Part shown: piece after piece, positions 991 to 44,206 of the stretch
Numbering within the stretch: position 1 is the first letter of the stretch
Layout: each line of letters begins with the position of its first letter
DNA from: a virus
Virus record (IMG/VR): IMGVR_UViG_3300023240_000035
Span: 1-44,206 of that record
Reading direction: 5' to 3' (one strand)
DNA: 44,206 nt
Translations under genes and position numbers: made by a program
Notes under the pieces: generated by a model
The model's database searches: none
Seen by the model: only the letters and a program-made list of their open reading frames with translations
Told to the model about the DNA's origin: nothing

Positions 991-3501
991 TTAATCTTCA
1001 ACAGTGATATTAGAAATGTCATCTTCAACAATGATATTAGAAATGTCATCTAAAAAAAGAGGAAAATCAACCTCAGAAACATCTGTTGTATCCTCAGAGT
1101 CATCGCTTATTTCAACAACAATGTTGTAGGTATTAATAGAGGTAGATATTTCGATTGTAATTTCGTTTGAAACATCAATTAAATTGACCAACCCTTCTAT
1201 TTCTTGGCTTATTTCGTTTGAAACTTCAATTATGTCAACTGAGCCATCTATTTCTTCATTTACTTCGCCTAACACTTCTGTTAAAAACACCACAGATTCT
1301 GGTTGAGAAATATCCACCTTAAACTCAGATCCTTTGTTAATTCCGTCTTTATAAATAAATCTTTCTCTATGGAACTCAGTGTTTCTGTAAATCACACCTT
1401 GAGCTAAAAGTATAGAAGTGGCTGGTAATAATTGTTTTCCATAATTGAAGAACTTTCTTTCGATTAGTTTGATGAAGTTCTCAAGTTTACTCATTGTGAT
1501 TCTACTTGAAATAGGGTGTTTCAAGAATGAGTAATTCAGGTAAATATTTTTTAAAGCTGGATAATAAAAAGTAGTATGGCTTTGGTCGTTTGTTTTCCTA
1601 GTTCTAGGGTCTACGTTGTTAGTAAACAAAAAAGTCATATACTCTTGATGAGTCATTCCTGATATATGCTCAGTAGCACCAGTAGGCTTAGCTGCGTATT
1701 GATCTTCTGGAACCCATTGGAACGGATAATCCCAATCAGCTAAACTGATATCGTCATAAGAGTAATTCCAAACAGTTCCTGATAATTGATACCACTCATG
1801 CACGTTACACTCAATTGCTTGGGCAGGATCAAGAGCGCAGTATAGTTGTTTAGAGTTAATGATATTTTCAGTACCAAAATAAACAGTATCTCCAGACTGA
1901 GTTTTAACATTATCGAACCTTAATACTGGGTCATATTGAGGTCTCCAGTAATCAATATAATTCATTCCATTACCTCTACCTAAACCTCCCTCTTGAAAAA
2001 TAAACGGATTTACTTGATAGTCAGGGAATCCATTTATTTTTGACTTAAAAGACAACTCACCTTCTAGGAGAGTGCCTGTGTCACCAGAAGAAGCAGCCGT
2101 TGTTATGTCATACACAATCTCATCAAGCCTTACCATGCACTCTGGCGCTCCAATAAGTTGGAAAACCCAAAGAAGAGGTTCTCTTGTTCCTTTTCTTTTT
2201 AATAACCAAATGATATTTGTTAATATTTTTCTCCAAAGCTGTAGGTTAAAAGATGCAGCCGAATTCCCCTCTCCATCTTCATCTCCAGATAGGTATCTTA
2301 ACAAATCCACTTCATTGAACTGAGGAGATAAATCAAACCCTAGTAGCTTAGAAAGCTTAAAAATAAATTTATCAGGCACTGATTCTGTCCCATCATAGGT
2401 TGCTGTGTGAGCATAAACAAGACCGTCAATGTATTGTTTGATAACATCAAACTCTTGTGCGTGAGATTGAGTTATATTTGCGTATATATTACTATCACTA
2501 TCGAAATCAAAATATGCATCTGGTATCATAGTCTGAGCCATGATATTAGTTTTGTCGCAATCTAGGGTTTCAGAGAAATCTAAAAAATCAAACTTCCAAG
2601 TCTCAAAATCAGTGCCGTAGGTATCAGGGTTGTATCCATCCACAGATTTAGGCCATTCGTAGGTCACTTCTATAGTAGACCCGTCATCCAATATAGGGTT
2701 TGCTATTTTATATTTTCCACTAAAAATTAATTGATTTTTAAGTGGAGTGAGTTCTTTTTTAAATTTATAAATAACTTTAGGAGAAGGTGCTATATAAAAA
2801 TCACTATAAGAATCAACAACAGATTGACCTGTTAATAAATCACCTTTAACAGTAACCTCTAAACAGTCTACTGAAAATACATATTTTAAAATCTGAAACT
2901 TTGGATTCGTAGACCCAGTTGAAAGCTCATCTTTAAAGTGAATCACATAATCGCTAGAATTATTAAACAAACTATTGTTGTTATAAGAATATCCAGAATT
3001 TAGAAGAACATTTCCTTGATTAACTAGGGAGTCCGTAGGTATTTTAAAAGTTGATTCAATTTTATTGGTATTTATATCCTGAACTCTAGAATAATCATAC
3101 AAAGTCTCAACACTAGAGACTCCTGATGTAACATATATAGCATAAGGAAACGTAGATATTATTTCAGCTATACCTTTTACTGATTCTGTCTTAAAGCTTG
3201 AAAAATAAGTAAGATTATGAGGTTTCTTGAAATCTAAATTAAGTTCTTGCTGCTGAACAAAAACACTAATTTTGTCAGAAAAACTAGAACCCGTTGCTTT
3301 CATCGAGTTTAAAGACTCATATTGATCGAAACTAAGATTTCTTAAGGTTCTATTAATAGAGTCTTGGTCTAAATTACTATCCACACGGTAGTCTCCAATA
3401 GTTGAAATTGAGTTAGGCGTGGTTGCAAAATACCTTAAATCCTCTCCCGGTGAAAAGAATGGTGATAATGTACTCGCTGTGTTTGGTAAATCAAATGGCA
3501 T
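991..3501 (-). CDS. Large tail/baseplate-like structural protein
   Basis: An 836-residue protein on the strand opposite to its structural neighbours. The central part (about residues 330-460) contains an FDVIKQYIDGL-type segment, then LLGFDL, then a helical stretch with LLKRKGTREPL and FQLIGAP. This recalls P2 gpI-like baseplate wedge proteins, where an LLKxKGT motif precedes a helix. I offer that as a fold-level resemblance, not a firm match. The C-terminal 110 residues are acidic and made of imperfect repeats (VSNEI, EISDD, DISNI), ending in a near-perfect 27-bp tandem duplication. The long Ser/Thr/Asn-rich N-terminus looks beta-rich. A baseplate or tail-fibre attachment role is inferred. 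Confidence 0.6.
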   Translation of the reverse strand: MPFDLPNTASTLSPFFSPGEDLRYFATTPNSISTIGDYRVDSNLDQDSINRTLRNLSFDQYESLNSMKATGSSFSDKISVFVQQQELNLDFKKPHNLTYFSSFKTESVKGIAEIISTFPYAIYVTSGVSSVETLYDYSRVQDINTNKIESTFKIPTDSLVNQGNVLLNSGYSYNNNSLFNNSSDYVIHFKDELSTGSTNPKFQILKYVFSVDCLEVTVKGDLLTGQSVVDSYSDFYIAPSPKVIYKFKKELTPLKNQLIFSGKYKIANPILDDGSTIEVTYEWPKSVDGYNPDTYGTDFETWKFDFLDFSETLDCDKTNIMAQTMIPDAYFDFDSDSNIYANITQSHAQEFDVIKQYIDGLVYAHTATYDGTESVPDKFIFKLSKLLGFDLSPQFNEVDLLRYLSGDEDGEGNSAASFNLQLWRKILTNIIWLLKRKGTREPLLWVFQLIGAPECMVRLDEIVYDITTAASSGDTGTLLEGELSFKSKINGFPDYQVNPFIFQEGGLGRGNGMNYIDYWRPQYDPVLRFDNVKTQSGDTVYFGTENIINSKQLYCALDPAQAIECNVHEWYQLSGTVWNYSYDDISLADWDYPFQWVPEDQYAAKPTGATEHISGMTHQEYMTFLFTNNVDPRTRKTNDQSHTTFYYPALKNIYLNYSFLKHPISSRITMSKLENFIKLIERKFFNYGKQLLPATSILLAQGVIYRNTEFHRERFIYKDGINKGSEFKVDISQPESVVFLTEVLGEVNEEIDGSVDIIEVSNEISQEIEGLVNLIDVSNEITIEISTSINTYNIVVEISDDSEDTTDVSEVDFPLFLDDISNIIVEDDISNITVED
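994..1047 (-). repeat. 27-bp tandem duplication at the 3' end of a structural gene
   Basis: Two adjacent 27-base copies (994-1020 and 1021-1047) differ at one base. They encode DISNI(I/T)VED twice at the extreme C-terminus of the 836-residue protein. The stop codon follows directly. The near identity indicates recent slippage or duplication. Confidence 0.85.
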
Positions 3502-32602: not shown

Positions 32603-35368
32603 ATGAATAAAAACACATACCCAAAAGGCTTTGCGCCTCGTGGAGAGCAGTTTGAAAAAGCTCAGAAAATCAAGCAAGAAGTATATAGTTTTTTAAAAGA
32701 AGCAATGGAAGAAGCTTCAGAGAAAGCCTTCAAAGCTTTAGGTATTCATTGCACAGAAAAGCACGCAGGAGAATACGGAGATGGTTCTGTTTATGGAGCA
32801 GGGTTAGGTGAAGGAGGAGCATGCAACATTAAGGTTGGAAGTAAGACGAACTCTTACTTAGAAAAACAAATATCTTACGGAGGAAAGAGAATGTTTGTTG
32901 AAGCAAGTTTTGAGATAGACGGAATAAAGGAAATGATTCATATGATTTATAGAACTACTGAAAAAGCGGTTTCTCAAGGTCATGGGGAATTCGAAGGAGG
33001 TTTCTTTGTGCATGAGAATATGCACATGAGCTTATCTGATATGAAAAAATTCAAAAAAGACATGAAAAAAATACTAGATGAAGCTGCAAAGAAAGAAGCA
33101 GCTTACTTAACTCAATCTAAGCTAGGAGTTGATGATAGAATTGAAACAGACACTACACAGACAGTTGCAGAAAGCATTGTTGGAGGAGACGTAGAGTCTT
33201 TTTTAAGTAATATGGATAATTTATTCGAATCGGATGGTATAGATGACGATGAGCAAGCTAAAGAGGATGCTTTGATTAAATCTAAAATCCAAGAAGAGGA
33301 GCGTATGAAGTTAAAAAAGAAAAACATTGATGACGGTGGCGCTAATCCTAACAGGAGACCAAAACTGAAAAAGAAAGATATTGATGACGGTGGCGCTAAT
33401 CCTAACAGGAGACCAAAACTGAAAAAGAAAGATATTGATGACGGTGGCGCTAATCCTAACAGGAGACCAAAACTGAAAAAGAAAGATATTGATGACGGAG
33501 ATCTTGAGGAAATGACAACATCTGGTGGAGGTGGTGGAGGAGGTTCTGCTGGAGCTTTTGGATATGACGCTCCTCTTGGAGGCGTTAAGAAAAGAAAATT
33601 AAAAAGTTCTGCACCATTTGATCAAGTAGTGAACGAAAATATTTTACGTGAGAGCTTAACCTCTAAAGGAATTGAGCAAGTTAAATCAATGGTAGAGAAA
33701 TTAGGAGCAAGAAAAACTGCTGAAAAAATGATTGACCTTGCTCTTAATAAAACAATTGGGATGAGTGCTAACGATTTACCAGACACTGCTATTTTTGCAG
33801 ACGGACTTGATGAAGTTGAAGAATTAATACATCAGTCAGATTTTTCAGAAGCCTTTAGAGTTGCGAAAGAGACGGCAGCATACATGGTTAGTGACGAAAT
33901 GGGAGGAATGGGAGAATTTTTTGAAAACAAAGGTTTTAGTGAAGGTAAAAAAGGGTATAACTTTGAAGTTTATCATGAAACTCTATCTGGAGCGCTTGAA
34001 ACTGCTCAGGATTTTGCAAGAGAAAAAGGTTATGAGATATCAGATGAGGATTTATTTCAATTTGGAATTGGCGGAATTAGCTATGACGTAACGAAAAGAG
34101 TTTCATTTGAATTAACTAAAAACGGAGAGTTAGCCAAAAACATGCTTCACGTTCAAATGTACAGGATGGGAAGTGGGAAATATGAACTTAATATGTATTT
34201 TGATAATTCTAAAAAATTAAATGAAAAGAAAGATTTTGATCCTAGATTTAAAGAGACTGCCTATTATCAGAAAATGATGAAGGATGAATTAAAAGGGCAA
34301 GGTAATGTTCGTTTGGTTCAAGAGAAGAATGAAAAAGGAGATGATTTCTGGACTGTAGTATCACCTGAAGTTATGAAGAGATATGAGAAGAACCACATTA
34401 TGGGCGCTCCGGGAGCAGAGGGTGTAGAGCCAAACTCTGAAGAAGAAGAAAATTTAGCCAAAGGTCATGGACAAAAGCATGGTGGAGGAAAGAAGAAGAA
34501 AAAAACAACAAACGAAAACCTTAAGCCTAGGTTTGCGCCAAGACTAAAGCATCAATCAAACCCTGAGATAAACGATAGCGGAGAGGAAGAAAATAGAGGT
34601 GAAAAAAATAAATTTTCACCAAGACTAAAACATCAAGCAAATCCTATCGATGAAAACGGAGATGAGGGAAACAAAAAGATAGAGGGTCAAAAATTCAATA
34701 TAGATATCAACCAGTCAAGTTTCGATGGAGAAGTTAATTCAAAATGGTCTATGACTGAATTTAATGGAAGTAGATATGGAAGTTGGGAAGATGCTATGAA
34801 AGATTTAGTTCAGAAATGGACAGAGAATCCTGAAATGCATAGTTTCTTTAGATTCAACCTAGAAACTAGTGATGATTTAGAGATTGGTAACCAAGAATTT
34901 TCTGGAGCGGATATACATGATTTCTTAGATTTAGAAAAATCACAAGAACAATTTAAGAACAACGATTACGCAAATGAATACATGGGTATTGATGAATCTG
35001 TAAGAAAAAGATATAAGCCCCAGAGGTCAAAAACTCAAGATGAAATTAATGATCGTTGGAAAACTTTAACAAATTTTTCAAAAAGACAAACTATTAAAGA
35101 AGCAGAAGATAAAGCTGACAAGTATAAGAGTCCATTTGAGGGAAGAGAAGAGAAAAAGCCTTTAAATGAAGTTCAACTAAAAAGCACTGTAAGAAACCAG
35201 TATTTAACTGAAGGGTCTATTGTAGATGGAAAGAAAATAATTTTAGTTAAAAACAGCAGAAGCAGAGAATACTTAATGTTTGAGTCAGATGCAAATGATT
35301 CTAAAAAAGCATTTTGTTTTGATTTTGTAACTGGAATGAGAGTATCTAACCCTAATTTTAAGTTATAA
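32603..35368 (+). CDS. Large hypothetical protein with internal tandem repeats
   Basis: A 921-residue, charged, Lys/Glu-rich protein. N-terminal about 170 residues look folded (KHAGEYGDGSVYGAGLGEGG, then VHENMHMSLSDMKKF). Residues about 238-299 are three and a half copies of an 18-residue unit (KKKDIDDGGANPNRRPKL), followed by a seven-Gly run. A second folded part with DEVEELIHQSDFSEAF and VTKRVSFELTKNGEL follows, then a linker with two FxPRLKHQxNP motifs (around residues 645 and 672) and a final domain. The layout of folded blocks joined by disordered linkers fits a virion or internal head protein, but this is inference. Own motif upstream, strong terminator downstream. Confidence 0.55.
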   Translation: MNKNTYPKGFAPRGEQFEKAQKIKQEVYSFLKEAMEEASEKAFKALGIHCTEKHAGEYGDGSVYGAGLGEGGACNIKVGSKTNSYLEKQISYGGKRMFVEASFEIDGIKEMIHMIYRTTEKAVSQGHGEFEGGFFVHENMHMSLSDMKKFKKDMKKILDEAAKKEAAYLTQSKLGVDDRIETDTTQTVAESIVGGDVESFLSNMDNLFESDGIDDDEQAKEDALIKSKIQEEERMKLKKKNIDDGGANPNRRPKLKKKDIDDGGANPNRRPKLKKKDIDDGGANPNRRPKLKKKDIDDGDLEEMTTSGGGGGGGSAGAFGYDAPLGGVKKRKLKSSAPFDQVVNENILRESLTSKGIEQVKSMVEKLGARKTAEKMIDLALNKTIGMSANDLPDTAIFADGLDEVEELIHQSDFSEAFRVAKETAAYMVSDEMGGMGEFFENKGFSEGKKGYNFEVYHETLSGALETAQDFAREKGYEISDEDLFQFGIGGISYDVTKRVSFELTKNGELAKNMLHVQMYRMGSGKYELNMYFDNSKKLNEKKDFDPRFKETAYYQKMMKDELKGQGNVRLVQEKNEKGDDFWTVVSPEVMKRYEKNHIMGAPGAEGVEPNSEEEENLAKGHGQKHGGGKKKKKTTNENLKPRFAPRLKHQSNPEINDSGEEENRGEKNKFSPRLKHQANPIDENGDEGNKKIEGQKFNIDINQSSFDGEVNSKWSMTEFNGSRYGSWEDAMKDLVQKWTENPEMHSFFRFNLETSDDLEIGNQEFSGADIHDFLDLEKSQEQFKNNDYANEYMGIDESVRKRYKPQRSKTQDEINDRWKTLTNFSKRQTIKEAEDKADKYKSPFEGREEKKPLNEVQLKSTVRNQYLTEGSIVDGKKIILVKNSRSREYLMFESDANDSKKAFCFDFVTGMRVSNPNFKL
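33314..33499 (+). repeat. 54-bp in-frame tandem repeat
   Basis: Three units (33314-33367, 33368-33421, 33422-33475) plus a 24-base partial fourth. Units two and three are identical at the DNA level and the first differs only near its start. Such identity in a coding repeat indicates recent expansion, so copy number probably varies between relatives. Confidence 0.9.
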
Positions 35369-37107: not shown

Positions 37108-39789
37108 ATGGCTACTGGACTAACATTTCCGACTTTATCCCCCACTACAAGCCCATATCAGCTAGTAGAAACACTAAACGATTTCTTTCTGCAAGTGCAG
37201 ACTGCATCTACATTTAATTTTGATACGTTTACAAGTAGTGGTTCGTTTGACGGAGTTAATCTTACTTTGACTAATAATCAAGGAGGAACTTTTAACGTCC
37301 CTTGGACAGACGATATATTTGCTACTGGAGGTAGTTATAACAACTCAACTTCAATTATCACTGTATCCAACAACTCAGGGGAAACCTTTGATATATCACT
37401 AACTGCTTTAACTGCTCAAATTGGATCTCTTGAATCAAACGAAGGAAATGATTTTGTTACAGGGAGTACTTTTAATAATTCAACAGGAATTATTACTTTC
37501 ACTAAACAAAGCGGAGGTACTTTTACTAGTGATTTATCCACTTTAACAAACGATTTATACAGTCTAAGTTCGGTTACTTCATTTGATGTAACTACAGGCG
37601 CAACATTTAGTCAGCCTGAAAACGAATTTACTTTTAGCACTTTTTCAGGAGGGTCTTATTCGGTAAATGCGGGTCTTCTATCGGCAAACACTTTTTCTAA
37701 CGCATTAACACTAAACGGAGATGTTCTAGAAATAGACTTAAGCGACAGTTCTCAGCTTACCACTTCTTTAAGCGGATTAGCACACAACGATTACGTTGTA
37801 AGTGGGTCTTATAGCTCTGGGAGTTCTTTGTTGAGCTTAACTACTTTAAGTGGAGATACAGTTAATATCGACATGGGAGAGCTTGCAAACCAAGCAGTCG
37901 GAGATGACTACATTGTTTCTGGTGAATTTAACTCAGGAACATCTGTAATGACATTAACCACTTTAAGTGGAAATACAGTTGAAGTCACAGGAGTAATGCA
38001 AGAAGATAGACATATTTTCTCAGGAAATGTCGTAGGAACATCATTAATAAGTTTTTACGGAGTAGGAGGTTATAACTTTGTAGTAGATGTAACAAGTCTT
38101 TCAAGTGCAGCTCAAAGAATATCTGGAGGCGCATATTCTGCCGACTCTTCTTCAATAGTATTCTCAGCTTCGTCTGGAGGTACAGCTTTTGTAGTAGAAG
38201 GAATAACCACAACTACAGGAGGAACTTATTCTTCGTTGAATGAAGAATTAGGGTTATATAATTCTACGGGAGGTACAATTTTGATTACTGGAGTAACTGA
38301 TAACTATATTACTGGAGCTACTTTTGATGAATCATCTTTTAACATAGATTTAACAGATAGACGTGGAAACTCAGTATCTTTAAGTTTAGGGTCTTTAACA
38401 GCTGATACTGGAGTTTCATCAGTTCAAGGAGGAACTAACATATCAACTGGAGGTACTCAAGAATTCCCTTCTATAAATCTAAACAATACAGTTAGCATAG
38501 GGACTGTGAACGCTGGAGTTGGAAACATAACCACAGTGAACGCACTTACACTTGCAGCCGCTACACTTAATGCTTATGTCTCAATTAACACAAACTCGTT
38601 AGCAGCAATCGCAGTAGATGCCCAAACAATTGACGCAAGCTTATTGACCTCTACCACAATTAACGCAGGTACAATTTACGCAGATACAGTTAATGCAGAT
38701 ACAATCAGCACAAGTTTATTGACCTCTACCACAATTAACGCAGATACAGTTAATGCTCAAGAAATTGACACAAATGTATTAACTGCTGGTACACTTAATA
38801 CATCTAACGGTAATTTTATTTCTTTAATTTCAGGCACTGGAAACTTCGTCTCCTTATTAACTGCCGCTACGTTTAACTCTCCTGCGATTACTTCTGTTAC
38901 AATTACTGCTGACACGATTAATGCTGACACGATTACTGCTACCACGATTAGCGGCTCTAGTTTGGTTTACGCACCATCAGTATACGCTACCAAGGTTATA
39001 GTTTCAGCGACTAGCACTAACACGATGAACGCAGTATCGCTTTCAGCTGATACTATTTTTTCAGGGTCTACGGATTTATATGATATTTTTCAATCTGAGC
39101 CTTCTACTTTGCAAGATATTGTTACAAACGGAAATATTATCTACAGCGGATCTCCTAGCTTGTCTGGAGAATCACTACATTTCTATGCTGAAGGAGAATC
39201 TGATAAATTTTCTTTTCAGGCTATTGATGACACTAATTTTGTGATAAGCGGAACAGCAGCTAATACTTCTATTATTAAATTTGACGGTAAAGATTTTAAA
39301 TTTGAATCCACACAATCAGCGGGGACTTATGTAGGTTTGTCGGTAGCTGGAGGTGGGCATCCTTATTTGATTGGATTCAACGGAACTCACAACAGCAGTA
39401 TTTTACTAGATGACATAACAGACGATAGGCAATGGAAGATGCCAGATGAGGGCGGGGTTGTGGAAGTGAAAGGAGGTGCGCCAGAAATAATGGATTTTGC
39501 TAGCACAGTTACTTTCAATGCTTTAGAGGGGAAAAATTTTGAAATAACACTGACAGCAGACACTCAGTTTACAATAATAAGACTCATGGCTGGAGATACA
39601 ATTAGAATTGTCACAAAACAAGACGCAGTAGGGTCTTGGGAAGTCACCTCACTAATTGCCAACTCCTTAGTACAAGGAGGAGGTTCTGGTGACATAACTT
39701 TAACTTCAGCAGCTAATGCTGTAGATATTTTTGAAGTCTATTATGATGGAACGAATTACTTCTGGACACCAATGCTAAACTACACTTAA
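37108..39789 (+). CDS. Tail-fibre-like repetitive beta protein
   Basis: An 893-residue, Ser/Thr/Gly/Asn-rich protein with no enzyme motif. Residues about 40-450 are repeated beta-hairpin units of about 30-35 residues, each with a (T/S)GGxY or GGTF turn. Residues about 475-650 form a different repeat, with short units such as TTINADTVNA and DTISTSLLTS, similar to beta-helix fibre shafts; here two DNA segments near 38640 and 38720 are almost identical. The C-terminal about 220 residues look like a globular tip, ending with a strand rich in Tyr/Trp. Likely a receptor-binding tail fibre (inferred from composition and repeats). Own motif, immediately after the PcfJ-like gene. Confidence 0.7.
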   Translation: MATGLTFPTLSPTTSPYQLVETLNDFFLQVQTASTFNFDTFTSSGSFDGVNLTLTNNQGGTFNVPWTDDIFATGGSYNNSTSIITVSNNSGETFDISLTALTAQIGSLESNEGNDFVTGSTFNNSTGIITFTKQSGGTFTSDLSTLTNDLYSLSSVTSFDVTTGATFSQPENEFTFSTFSGGSYSVNAGLLSANTFSNALTLNGDVLEIDLSDSSQLTTSLSGLAHNDYVVSGSYSSGSSLLSLTTLSGDTVNIDMGELANQAVGDDYIVSGEFNSGTSVMTLTTLSGNTVEVTGVMQEDRHIFSGNVVGTSLISFYGVGGYNFVVDVTSLSSAAQRISGGAYSADSSSIVFSASSGGTAFVVEGITTTTGGTYSSLNEELGLYNSTGGTILITGVTDNYITGATFDESSFNIDLTDRRGNSVSLSLGSLTADTGVSSVQGGTNISTGGTQEFPSINLNNTVSIGTVNAGVGNITTVNALTLAAATLNAYVSINTNSLAAIAVDAQTIDASLLTSTTINAGTIYADTVNADTISTSLLTSTTINADTVNAQEIDTNVLTAGTLNTSNGNFISLISGTGNFVSLLTAATFNSPAITSVTITADTINADTITATTISGSSLVYAPSVYATKVIVSATSTNTMNAVSLSADTIFSGSTDLYDIFQSEPSTLQDIVTNGNIIYSGSPSLSGESLHFYAEGESDKFSFQAIDDTNFVISGTAANTSIIKFDGKDFKFESTQSAGTYVGLSVAGGGHPYLIGFNGTHNSSILLDDITDDRQWKMPDEGGVVEVKGGAPEIMDFASTVTFNALEGKNFEITLTADTQFTIIRLMAGDTIRIVTKQDAVGSWEVTSLIANSLVQGGGSGDITLTSAANAVDIFEVYYDGTNYFWTPMLNYT

Positions 39790-40609: not shown

Positions 40610-43123
40610 TCAAAGTGCTTTTTTTATTACATCAACCATAAATGTTATTTCTTTGACCGATAGCTTCGGATGGTTTGGGATATATATTCCACATTCATCT
40701 ATTTTTTTTGAATTATCAGTAGATTTTTCTCCATACACAGAAACATACATTGGCTGCATACCCATTGACCCTGAAATTAAAGGTCTACATTCAATATTGT
40801 TTTTATGGAGAGCCAATATCACTCTTTCTTTTTGGGTTTTATTTTCTAAAATTATAGGATAACAAAAACTTGCCGTCCAAGAACCTTTCGTAGGCGTTGG
40901 AGTCCAAAGTTTTAATTCTTCTATTTCATTTTTAAGATGAGAGAAGTTTGTGTTTCTTTTAGCTAGCCAATCATCTATTTTTTCTAATTGACGAATTCCT
41001 AAAAAAGCTTGAAGGTCGGTAGATCTTAAATTAAAGGCTGGGATATAAAAAGTATATAAAGCATTAAATTCATCGATAGACCATTTCTCTCTAAGTTCAG
41101 ATTTAGCTTCATTATCTAAGTCTCTATCCCAACCATGAGACCTTAACTGAAGAAGGGTGTCATAGACTTCTTTATCATCCGTACAAACCATACCTCCTTC
41201 GATTGTTGAGTTATGAAGACAAATTGGCTGCCAACCTCCTACAAAATTTTCATAATTAGGGACGGAAAAGTCATAAACAAATTCATGGTCATCGGAGTTT
41301 AATATTTCAATATCTCTAATCTCTAGCTCCATTAAATCCCCATAATCTTCCCCCTCGTATACTAGAGAAGTTTTTCTACCTTCTTTTTTCTGGTACAACT
41401 CTCCCTCTTCATTAAAAAAAGTGTTATACATTCTGTAACTTTCAATCTCAAAATTTGGAGATATTAATCTTCCTTTAATATATGATTCTTTAATTTTACA
41501 CTTCACTCCTGTAGACCCTCTAATTCCTAAAGATGAGCATAGATAAGAAACGTCATTAATCAACATTTTTGATGAACTAGCAAACTCAGTTCTAGTTTCA
41601 TCGCAAGTCCCGTCACCTAAATGAAATCCATGTAAAAAGTTCAACTTATTTTGCGTATTTACATTCCAAATAAAATCTGGAATCCTTTTGTTTGGAGCGC
41701 CAGATTTTATTCCTAAAAAATATTTAAAGAAAAAACACAAAGTCTTTGAGTCAAACATAACTTGAGTTACATTTTCTTTTGTTGATGTTGATGTATATCC
41801 TATTATCCCAAAAACACTCTCTATAGATTCTAACACTTCTTTTATAAATTGATATTCATTTTTATTAAAAGTAAAACACAGCCCTGTCTCTTTTTTTCCT
41901 CCTCTAAATGAGCCTTCAGCAATAAAAAACCCAACCATTTTACAAAATGAAGGCGTAATTAATACGCTGTGTGGGACAAACTTGTTTTTAGGAGTGTTTT
42001 TAAACGCGACTCTTAAGTTTGTAGTTTTATTATTAGCCAACTCTAAAGGAAGCTGTTTTCTCTGTTTATAATTTTCTTTAAGTCTGTACTCTTTAGTCCC
42101 CCATTTTGGTTTATAATTACAGTAATCTTCTTCATTGTGGTTAATTACAAAAAAAGTAGAATTATATTTCCTACAAAAAGAATAAAAATCTAAATTATTT
42201 ATTTCTTCATTATTAAAATTAAACTTCTGAGGCACTATAATTTTATCCCCTTTTTTTAATTTATTTCCTGAAACTGAAACTGGAAGCCCCATTTCAAACT
42301 TAAAAACACTATGATCCTCAGTAATGTCTACTGACCTGTTGTTTTTAAGTTTTAATCTAAATATTCTTTTATCTCCTAATTTGTGTTTTATAATTTCAGA
42401 AGGAGTTCTCTTATAAATCTTTTTATCATTTTGATTAAAAGATAAAATATTTATTTCTTCTGGTTTAAAATTATCATAAATATATTTTATATTTTCAATT
42501 CTAAACTGGTTTTTTTTATCATAAAAAGGAATTGGAGTATCAGAAACAACACTCATAGAATGTCCGAAATAGGTTGAGAAGGAACTCATTAATCCAAAAG
42601 TGCCTAATTTTTTACAACTATATCTAGTCCCTTGAGATTCGCAGACATCTTCTAGAAGAATAACATCATACTTTTTACAAAGGGTGGTAATATCAGCCAT
42701 GTGGGGAGACAGCCCTAGTGCTGAGACTAACATTAAAGCAGAAGGTTCTTGTTCTATAAAAATCTTCTCTAAGTCTTGAATTGACACAGAAAGATTTTCT
42801 AAATTTATATCGCATAAAATTGGTTCAAAATCAAGTATCATAGCACTTGATAAATCTGTAGCCCAAGCTAATTGAGGAATAACAATTTTATTATTTTTGA
42901 GAGGGTATAGAGTTTTTATTGTTTGGAGCATCAACAGTAGAGCTGATGATCCAGAGTTTACAAATACAGAATATTTAGACCCTAGCCATTCTGACCAATT
43001 GTTCTCATACTCTAAAGTGAGCGACCCTTTTGTTAATCGAGGGTATGTTTTCAACCACTCAATAAGAGCGTCAATATCATCCCTTTCGATTGTGTCTTTA
43101 ACAAGTTGAATGTTTTCTTCCAT
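40610..43123 (-). CDS. ColD-like PLP-dependent sugar enzyme, interrupted by an intein
   Basis: An 837-residue precursor: N-extein residues 1-190, intein 191-638, C-extein 639-837. The exteins join to a 389-residue DegT/DnrJ/EryC1/StrS-family protein. Features: NSGSSALL (PLP phosphate loop), LLEDVCESQGT (the Asp pairing with the PLP ring nitrogen), FGLMSSFSTYFGHSM joined to STIEGGMVCTDD, and RSHGWDRDL. Where aminotransferases have the PLP-binding Lys, this protein has His188, as in ColD, the GDP-4-keto-6-deoxymannose 3-dehydratase of colitose synthesis. From memory the E. coli ColD pattern is close (EDNCESMGAT, FGLMGTFSS, HH-ATMEGG). The likely reaction is thus C3 deoxygenation of a GDP-sugar, not transamination. 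The gene lies beside the reductase and GT11 genes. Confidence 0.85.
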   Translation of the reverse strand: MEENIQLVKDTIERDDIDALIEWLKTYPRLTKGSLTLEYENNWSEWLGSKYSVFVNSGSSALLLMLQTIKTLYPLKNNKIVIPQLAWATDLSSAMILDFEPILCDINLENLSVSIQDLEKIFIEQEPSALMLVSALGLSPHMADITTLCKKYDVILLEDVCESQGTRYSCKKLGTFGLMSSFSTYFGHSMSVVSDTPIPFYDKKNQFRIENIKYIYDNFKPEEINILSFNQNDKKIYKRTPSEIIKHKLGDKRIFRLKLKNNRSVDITEDHSVFKFEMGLPVSVSGNKLKKGDKIIVPQKFNFNNEEINNLDFYSFCRKYNSTFFVINHNEEDYCNYKPKWGTKEYRLKENYKQRKQLPLELANNKTTNLRVAFKNTPKNKFVPHSVLITPSFCKMVGFFIAEGSFRGGKKETGLCFTFNKNEYQFIKEVLESIESVFGIIGYTSTSTKENVTQVMFDSKTLCFFFKYFLGIKSGAPNKRIPDFIWNVNTQNKLNFLHGFHLGDGTCDETRTEFASSSKMLINDVSYLCSSLGIRGSTGVKCKIKESYIKGRLISPNFEIESYRMYNTFFNEEGELYQKKEGRKTSLVYEGEDYGDLMELEIRDIEILNSDDHEFVYDFSVPNYENFVGGWQPICLHNSTIEGGMVCTDDKEVYDTLLQLRSHGWDRDLDNEAKSELREKWSIDEFNALYTFYIPAFNLRSTDLQAFLGIRQLEKIDDWLAKRNTNFSHLKNEIEELKLWTPTPTKGSWTASFCYPIILENKTQKERVILALHKNNIECRPLISGSMGMQPMYVSVYGEKSTDNSKKIDECGIYIPNHPKLSVKEITFMVDVIKKAL
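41210..42553 (-). mobile_element. Ser-type intein with LAGLIDADG homing endonuclease
   Basis: Residues 191-638 (448) of the ColD-like precursor. N-terminal splicing block starts at Ser191 (SVVSDTPIPF). Block B has DITEDHSVF (Thr268, His271). Endonuclease motifs are VGFFIAEGSF (Glu403) and LHGFHLGDGT (Asp504), the two LAGLIDADG helices. Block F is DDHEFVYDFSVPNYENFVGG and block G ends WQPICLHN, followed by Ser639 of the C-extein. All residues needed for splicing (Ser1, TxxH, penultimate His, terminal Asn, +1 Ser) are present, so it is probably active. The insertion point lies two residues after the predicted catalytic His, a typical conserved-site choice. Confidence 0.9.
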
Positions 43124-43157: not shown

Positions 43158-44066
43158 TTAAAGATATTGTTTCTTATAAGTTTGACTAATCCCATCCTCT
43201 AGAGATGTTGGTGTCCAGTTAGGAAAAATAGATTCTAGCTTTTCAATAGAAACATCTTTACGAAATTGACCATCAGGCTTGGTTGGGTCAAATTTTATCT
43301 CAAGATGTGCAGCGCCCATCGATTTAAGGGCTATTTTAGCCATTTCCTTGATAGATAAGTTATCTTTAATGGCAATGTTCATATTCTGGTAAACATCCTC
43401 CTCTATGCATTTAAAAATAATATTACAAAAATCATCAACCAACATAAACTGTCTTAGAGGAGTTCCTGATCCAAAAAGCATTATATGGTCATCTTGATTA
43501 ATCTTGGCTTTATGTATTTTCTCAATTAATGCTCCTACAAAATGTGCGTTTTTCCCGGACTTATCTCCAAACCCATAAAGGTTGCAAGGAGTCAAATATT
43601 GGTATTGTGTTTTGTATTGTTGATTGCAAGCATCAATTTGAACTGCCATTGACCTTTTTGCGTATCCGTATGAAAAATTAGTAGGAGTAGGAGCGCCTAA
43701 ATGCATGTATTCCTCTTTCATAGGGTAATGGTCGTCAGGTAGAGTGTCTGGATAAATGCAAGTAGATAAAATCGCAATAACTCTTTTTACACCATGCTTT
43801 CTTGATTCATTTATAAGCAAAGTGTTCATAAGGACATTATCATCATAATAATCTGAAGGCTGTTCAATGTTAACTGTAATACCACCAACACGAGCTGCTA
43901 AGTGAATTATAACATCAGGGTTATGATATCTTATCATATTCTGGACATCTTCTTGATCAGTTAAATCGTAAGTAGAAGAACTAAGATAAATGGCGTTTGG
44001 GTAGAGCTTTTTTAAACCTTTCCCTACCATTCCTGAACCTCCTGTGATTATTATTTTTCTATCCAT
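43158..44066 (-). CDS. GDP-L-fucose/GDP-L-colitose synthase-type epimerase-reductase
   Basis: A 302-residue short-chain dehydrogenase of the extended type. Rossmann motif GGSGMVG (9-15), LAARVGGI (57-64), catalytic STC (101-103), Tyr133-x3-Lys137 in [28 protein letters not shown] and DGQFRKDVS. This is the pattern of GDP-L-fucose synthase (Fcl/WcaG), which turns GDP-4-keto-6-deoxymannose into GDP-fucose by 3,5-epimerisation and NADPH reduction. ColC, the GDP-colitose synthase, is its close relative, and sequence alone does not separate them. A ColD-like gene downstream and a GT11 gene upstream on the same strand make either product plausible. Confidence 0.85.
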
Positions 44067-44206
44067 GATTGGGGATGCATGTCTTTTGTTTCATAATGAG
44101 AATAAGCAGTACCAAACCATTTTTTTGGAACGATTACTTTCTTGGTAGGATTTGTGTTTAAATAAGCTCCCCACCAAGAATATGATGAATTTGCAATAAT
44201 ATTTGA
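44051..44206 (-). CDS. C-terminus of GT11 fucosyl/colitosyl-transferase, cut by window edge
   Basis: The minus-strand frame is open from the window edge at 44206 to a stop at 44051-44053, giving the last 51 residues. They begin [17 protein letters not shown] and continue [10 protein letters not shown], the well-known terminal motif (NSSFSWWGA) of family GT11 alpha-1,2-fucosyltransferases. The stop overlaps the reductase start by 16 bases, so the two are coupled. GT11 enzymes use GDP-fucose; some O-antigen members use GDP-colitose. The N-terminal GDP-binding part lies outside the window. Confidence 0.8.

Follow-up and report, generated by a model that had tools for sequence, protein, structure and literature searches.

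Class 1 LAGLIDADG inteins of known structure, i.e. PI-PkoII (2cw7), the intein of archaeal V-type ATPase subunit A (7qss) and the TFIIB mini-inteins (5o9i/5o9j), share a common block order, and the full-length ones carry two endonuclease motifs. In phages, elements of the same type interrupt the genes of ribonucleotide reductase, terminase, PolB and methylase at conserved or active-site motifs, and in a mycobacteriophage survey all intein-bearing proteins bind nucleic acid (PMC5050341). The insertion sites of inteins are at a mean distance of 8.3 Å from active-site residues (PMC3359363). As a rule, inteins are inserted at conserved catalytic motifs; because inteins generally sit near active sites, the host protein depends on splicing, and this does not imply regulation. 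Here we examined a viral fragment of 44,206 nucleotides (IMGVR_UViG_3300023240_000035; the window) in which an element with the block order and the two endonuclease motifs of these inteins resides in a nucleotide-sugar enzyme, i.e. in a host which, unlike the usual phage intein hosts, does not act on nucleic acid. Possible precedents among sugar enzymes, for which the literature search gave no confirmation, are inteins in archaeal UDP-glucose dehydrogenase and glutamine-fructose-6-phosphate transaminase. The first-pass annotation had called such an enzyme an unusual phage intein host. This agrees with the survey cited above (PMC5050341) and with the annotated phage inteins closest to the window intein, most of which reside in genes for ribonucleotide reductase, terminase or portal protein. 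Very probably, a ColD-like GDP-sugar 3-dehydratase of a phage is interrupted here by a canonical class 1 LAGLIDADG homing intein of the Ser type, which would self-splice and spread by homing.

The features of the precursor gene are collected in Table 1. The coordinates first assigned to the intein (41210-42553) were exact, and the feature is located on the minus strand; a plus-strand reading of 41210..42553 has many stops and no open frame and was rejected. A DegT_DnrJ_EryC1 match (Pfam, E 1.2e-53) is split in two and flanks the intein, which begins with SVVSDTPIP at Ser191 and ends with WQPICLHN at Asn638. Intein_splicing (Pfam PF14890) covers residues 202-638 (E 2.7e-16; 60.2 bits vs a cut-off of 35.8) and encloses a LAGLIDADG_3 match (Pfam, residues 493-541, E 2.2e-10); intein_Nterm (NCBIfam TIGR01445) scored 32.2 bits vs a cut-off of 24.5. 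By PF14890 and TIGR01445, both halves of the HINT splicing domain are present in the open reading frame. To locate the boundaries, 22 x 22 candidates were scored against L037, the closest intein-free homologue among the matches listed (61% identical, empty site). The best excisions removed exactly 448 residues, which excludes chance; 190/638 was tied with the equivalent 191/639 because a Ser is present on both sides. At the junction FGHSM|STIEGGM the joined extein of 389 residues aligned gap-free with phage homologues and with ColD. The comparison with intein-free ColD/DegT homologues proposed in the first-pass annotation was thereby carried out, with no gap at the junction. Joined, the exteins make up an intact host protein; two viruses have the site filled, and many have it empty. 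This is a real intein.

ColD-type enzymes lack the [2Fe-2S] four-Cys motif, unlike E1/SpnQ, and use GDP-4-keto-6-deoxymannose as a substrate. In ColD the aminotransferase Lys is replaced by a His, which is both base and acid in catalysis (PMC8987622). The host protein, a member of the DegT family, has the same replacement: His188 aligned with the ColD His in place of Lys, and the intein is indeed inserted two residues past it, as first annotated. Among solved structures the extein matched ColD best (7e-48; E1-type 9e-26), and alignment to ColD, GDP-4-keto-6-deoxy-D-mannose 3-dehydratase (2gms, 3gr9), extended over nearly its full length. Different from ColD, the window protein is translated as an intein-bearing precursor, and its substrate and product are predicted. 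The unspliced precursor is probably inactive, as may reasonably be expected.

IMG/VR was scanned with a DNA pattern encoding HN-x-T-[IM]-E-G-G. This yielded 25 viral stretches, and the true same-site matches were the window's own virus and a contig of 308,405 bp (L032, IMGVR_UViG_3300044712_002679), in which a distantly related phage encodes a ColD-like precursor of 864 aa, interrupted at the identical position by an intein of 480 aa. Most of the stretches were chance matches; L028 and L029 were rejected as terminase-like reading frames in which HN.TIEGG lies within the intein's own C-terminus. A looser junction pattern without the His gave the same two carriers only, i.e. no third allele. In 84,980 prokaryotic genomes the C-terminal junction pattern resulted in 13 stretches, none an intein-bearing ColD. 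The scans used exact patterns, and alleles with different flanking residues could escape. None of the records of 50,697 phages contained most of the 837-aa precursor. Apart from the window's virus, a search with the intein alignment retrieved nothing but weak matches to canonical inteins of PolB and RNR genes. Window and L032 are 46.9% identical in their exteins and 46.0% in their inteins; the equal divergence does not indicate a recent transfer between the two carriers. In both, intein GC is below extein GC (28.6 vs 33-35% and 20.8 vs 26-27%).

The 308-kb contig has further inteins in genes for a C5 methylase and IMPDH. With the intein in the C5 cytosine DNA methylase (L132:802-2751, minus strand; the +1 residue is the Cys of GGSPCQ) and the others, at least three intein-bearing genes are present in this one contig. 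The IMP dehydrogenase gene (L134:3-2217) is interrupted by an apparent fractured split intein. In its N part (3-449) the intein starts after GGG|CFVENTKV, a separate 341-aa reading frame without a Pfam match follows (498-1523), and the C part (1507-2217) begins within the intein and continues with ...IIVHN|CLTSKN.

The class 1 residue set is complete in the window intein (S1, T78-x-x-H81, H447-N448, S+1) and kept in the second allele; S1, T78, H81, E213, K289, D314, D428, H447 and N448 are invariant in both. The endonuclease region comprises FIAEGS (E213), NKRIP (K289, between the motifs) and LGDG (D314), i.e. two motifs with their acidic residues as in LAGLIDADG endonucleases. The Ser type and both LAGLIDADG motifs of the original description are thereby supported. 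Block G is H447-N448 and block F is YDFSVPNYENF. His-Asn in block F is common in many inteins, whereas the window intein has Glu-Asn (YENF); the aligned TFIIB inteins also have ENF. A profile built from the two intein sequences (window and L032) matched solved inteins with E-values from 6e-27 to 2e-14. PI-PkoII (2cw7, 6e-27), the TFIIB mini-inteins (5o9i/5o9j) and VMA (7qss) aligned through the C-terminal His-Asn and have VYD..V...NF....HN in common. The window intein differs from these by host gene and site, by Ser1, by low identity and by a phage instead of an archaeal carrier. An AlphaFold model computed from two sequences had a pLDDT of 38, too low for use. The first-pass term 'active-looking' is appropriate for motifs and residues, which are intact as far as the sequence tells; that the intein is active is probable.

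Table 1. Coordinates of the intein-bearing gene, its parts and the upstream gene in the window.
Feature	Position	Strand	Remarks
ColD-like (DegT family) nucleotide-sugar 3-dehydratase with intein, 837-aa precursor	40610..43123	minus	single ATG ORF
N-extein, residues 1-190, last residues FGHSM, His188 predicted catalytic base	42554..43123	minus	
Intein, 448 aa, residues 191-638 of precursor, Ser1 (block A SVVSDTPI) to His447-Asn448	41210..42553	minus	
Block B TxxH motif, T78-E79-D80-H81 of intein	42311..42322	minus	invariant in both alleles; coordinates computed from ORF
First LAGLIDADG motif VGFFIAEGS, intein residues 207-215, acidic E213	41909..41935	minus	E213 invariant in both alleles
Second LAGLIDADG motif HGFHLGDG, intein residues 308-315, acidic D314	41609..41632	minus	
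Splicing blocks F and G, intein residues 425-448: FVYDFSVPNYENFVGGWQPICLHN	41210..41281	minus	aligned with PI-PkoII and TFIIB inteins
C-extein, 199 residues, first residues STIEGGMVC, Ser is +1 residue	40613..41209	minus	
Upstream gene: 302-aa NAD-dependent epimerase, GDP-fucose-synthase-like, candidate ColC role	43158..44066	minus	

Splicing and cleavage would proceed as follows. In the precursor, Ser1 would serve as the first nucleophile and the C-extein Ser+1 as the second; cyclisation of Asn448 would then leave the intact 389-aa enzyme. The endonuclease would cut intein-free phage ColD genes at the conserved GHxM|STIEGGM codons, and repair of the cut gene would copy the intein in, with mixed infections as the setting. 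There are at least 522 homologous viral ColD stretches, and 79 of the 80 best viral homologues are uninterrupted at the site. The +1 Ser is native to the family: the listed intein-free viral homologues all have Ser except L104 (Thr). Near the site up to 40 of 48 bases are identical between the window and empty homologues; with the site DNA so well conserved, potential homing targets are many.

The history of the intein can be read in more than one way. Possibly it is an old element from a common ancestor of the phage ColD genes that was lost in most lineages; the equal divergence of intein and extein between window and L032 speaks for this, yet we rate it as rather unlikely. A tree was built of 72 exteins; in it the empty L037 is the sister of the window (SH-aLRT 99), and L032 is grouped with the empty L063/L084 (88). 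The minimum number of changes in intein presence is two, and inheritance from an ancestor would call for about six or more independent losses as opposed to two gains. In addition, the endonuclease residues are intact in both alleles, which is unexpected for a long-resident intein that does not home. Because the carriers are in separate groups of empty genes, a homing parasite fits better than vertical inheritance, and the intein presumably moved by homing. Hardly credible is that the intein no longer splices or that the reading frame is an assembly artefact. The replaced His of block F might suggest a dead gene, but a same-site allele exists in an independent 308-kb contig, the frame stays open for 448 and 480 codons, no catalytic residue is missing, and the conserved residues of the C-extein are retained in the alignment to homologues.

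The first-pass annotation had also proposed that splicing gates sugar synthesis. This was not borne out: nothing pointed to conditional splicing, and the distribution of the intein is in line with a selfish homing element. As a post-translational switch, the intein would await an infection signal before it splices. Before splicing, an insertion two residues past the catalytic His is bound to perturb the active site, the C-terminal WQPICLHN is strictly conserved in both alleles, and conditional splicing is known elsewhere, e.g. in Pyrococcus RadA (PMC5790916). However, active-site insertion is general among inteins (PMC3359363), Ser1 and Ser+1 offer no nucleophile Cys for a redox trap, and nearly all of the best viral homologues are intein-free, including L037 with the same neighbours. 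The pathway therefore works without the intein, and we consider such a switch very improbable. Equally improbable is its extension to a timed infection switch which delays the phage surface-sugar pathway and was retained in two lineages for that purpose. Most likely, we are dealing with an ordinary selfish homing intein.

The window overlaps with a 54-kb contig (record of L002) at 100% over 10.8 kb. This contig adds sugar genes, i.e. two family-11 and one family-2 glycosyltransferases and a DegT aminotransferase, as well as a weak methyltransferase match and a GNAT-domain protein. The two family-11 (fucosyltransferase-like) glycosyltransferases (L002:2-457 and L002:4330-5073) belong to the same phage sugar cluster. 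Window positions 44133-44191 (59 bases) are repeated there at 78%, probably due to duplication of a family-11 glycosyltransferase. A second DegT protein of this virus, on L002, is of the ordinary Lys type. Three large reading frames of the window had no PHROGs match: 991-3501 (minus, 836 aa) and 32603-35368 (plus, 921 aa), both also without a Pfam match, and 37108-39789 (plus, 893 aa), which is repetitive and tail- or adhesin-like. The upstream epimerase is also present in L037, together with a protein homologous to the 258-aa one encoded downstream in the window; these common neighbours identify a related gene cluster in which the site is empty. Near their ColD genes, L037 and L032 encode a full GDP-mannose 4,6-dehydratase, whereas the 54-kb contig has the fucose-synthase-like epimerase only. 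The Synechococcus phages ACG-2014f and S-CAM7 possess ColD-like genes in the order epimerase, epimerase, ColD-like, glycosyltransferase; these are 30-34% identical to the window extein, gap-free at the site and intein-free. From the neighbouring sugar genes of the window, the cyanophages, L037 and L032, a GDP-colitose-like product of the pathway is likely, and the enzyme would contribute a colitose-type sugar to a phage-directed glycan.

Among the papers listed by a literature search, none described an intein in a DegT/ColD gene, which is no proof of novelty. Host gene and insertion site appear to be new; the kind of element is well known. The host range of phage inteins is extended to auxiliary carbohydrate genes. 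The gene exploited by this intein is frequent in phages, and the insertion falls in a highly conserved catalytic motif. For protein engineering the element offers one more Ser-type intein to try, and the two alleles together with the many empty sites constitute a clean natural system for tests of phage-to-phage homing.
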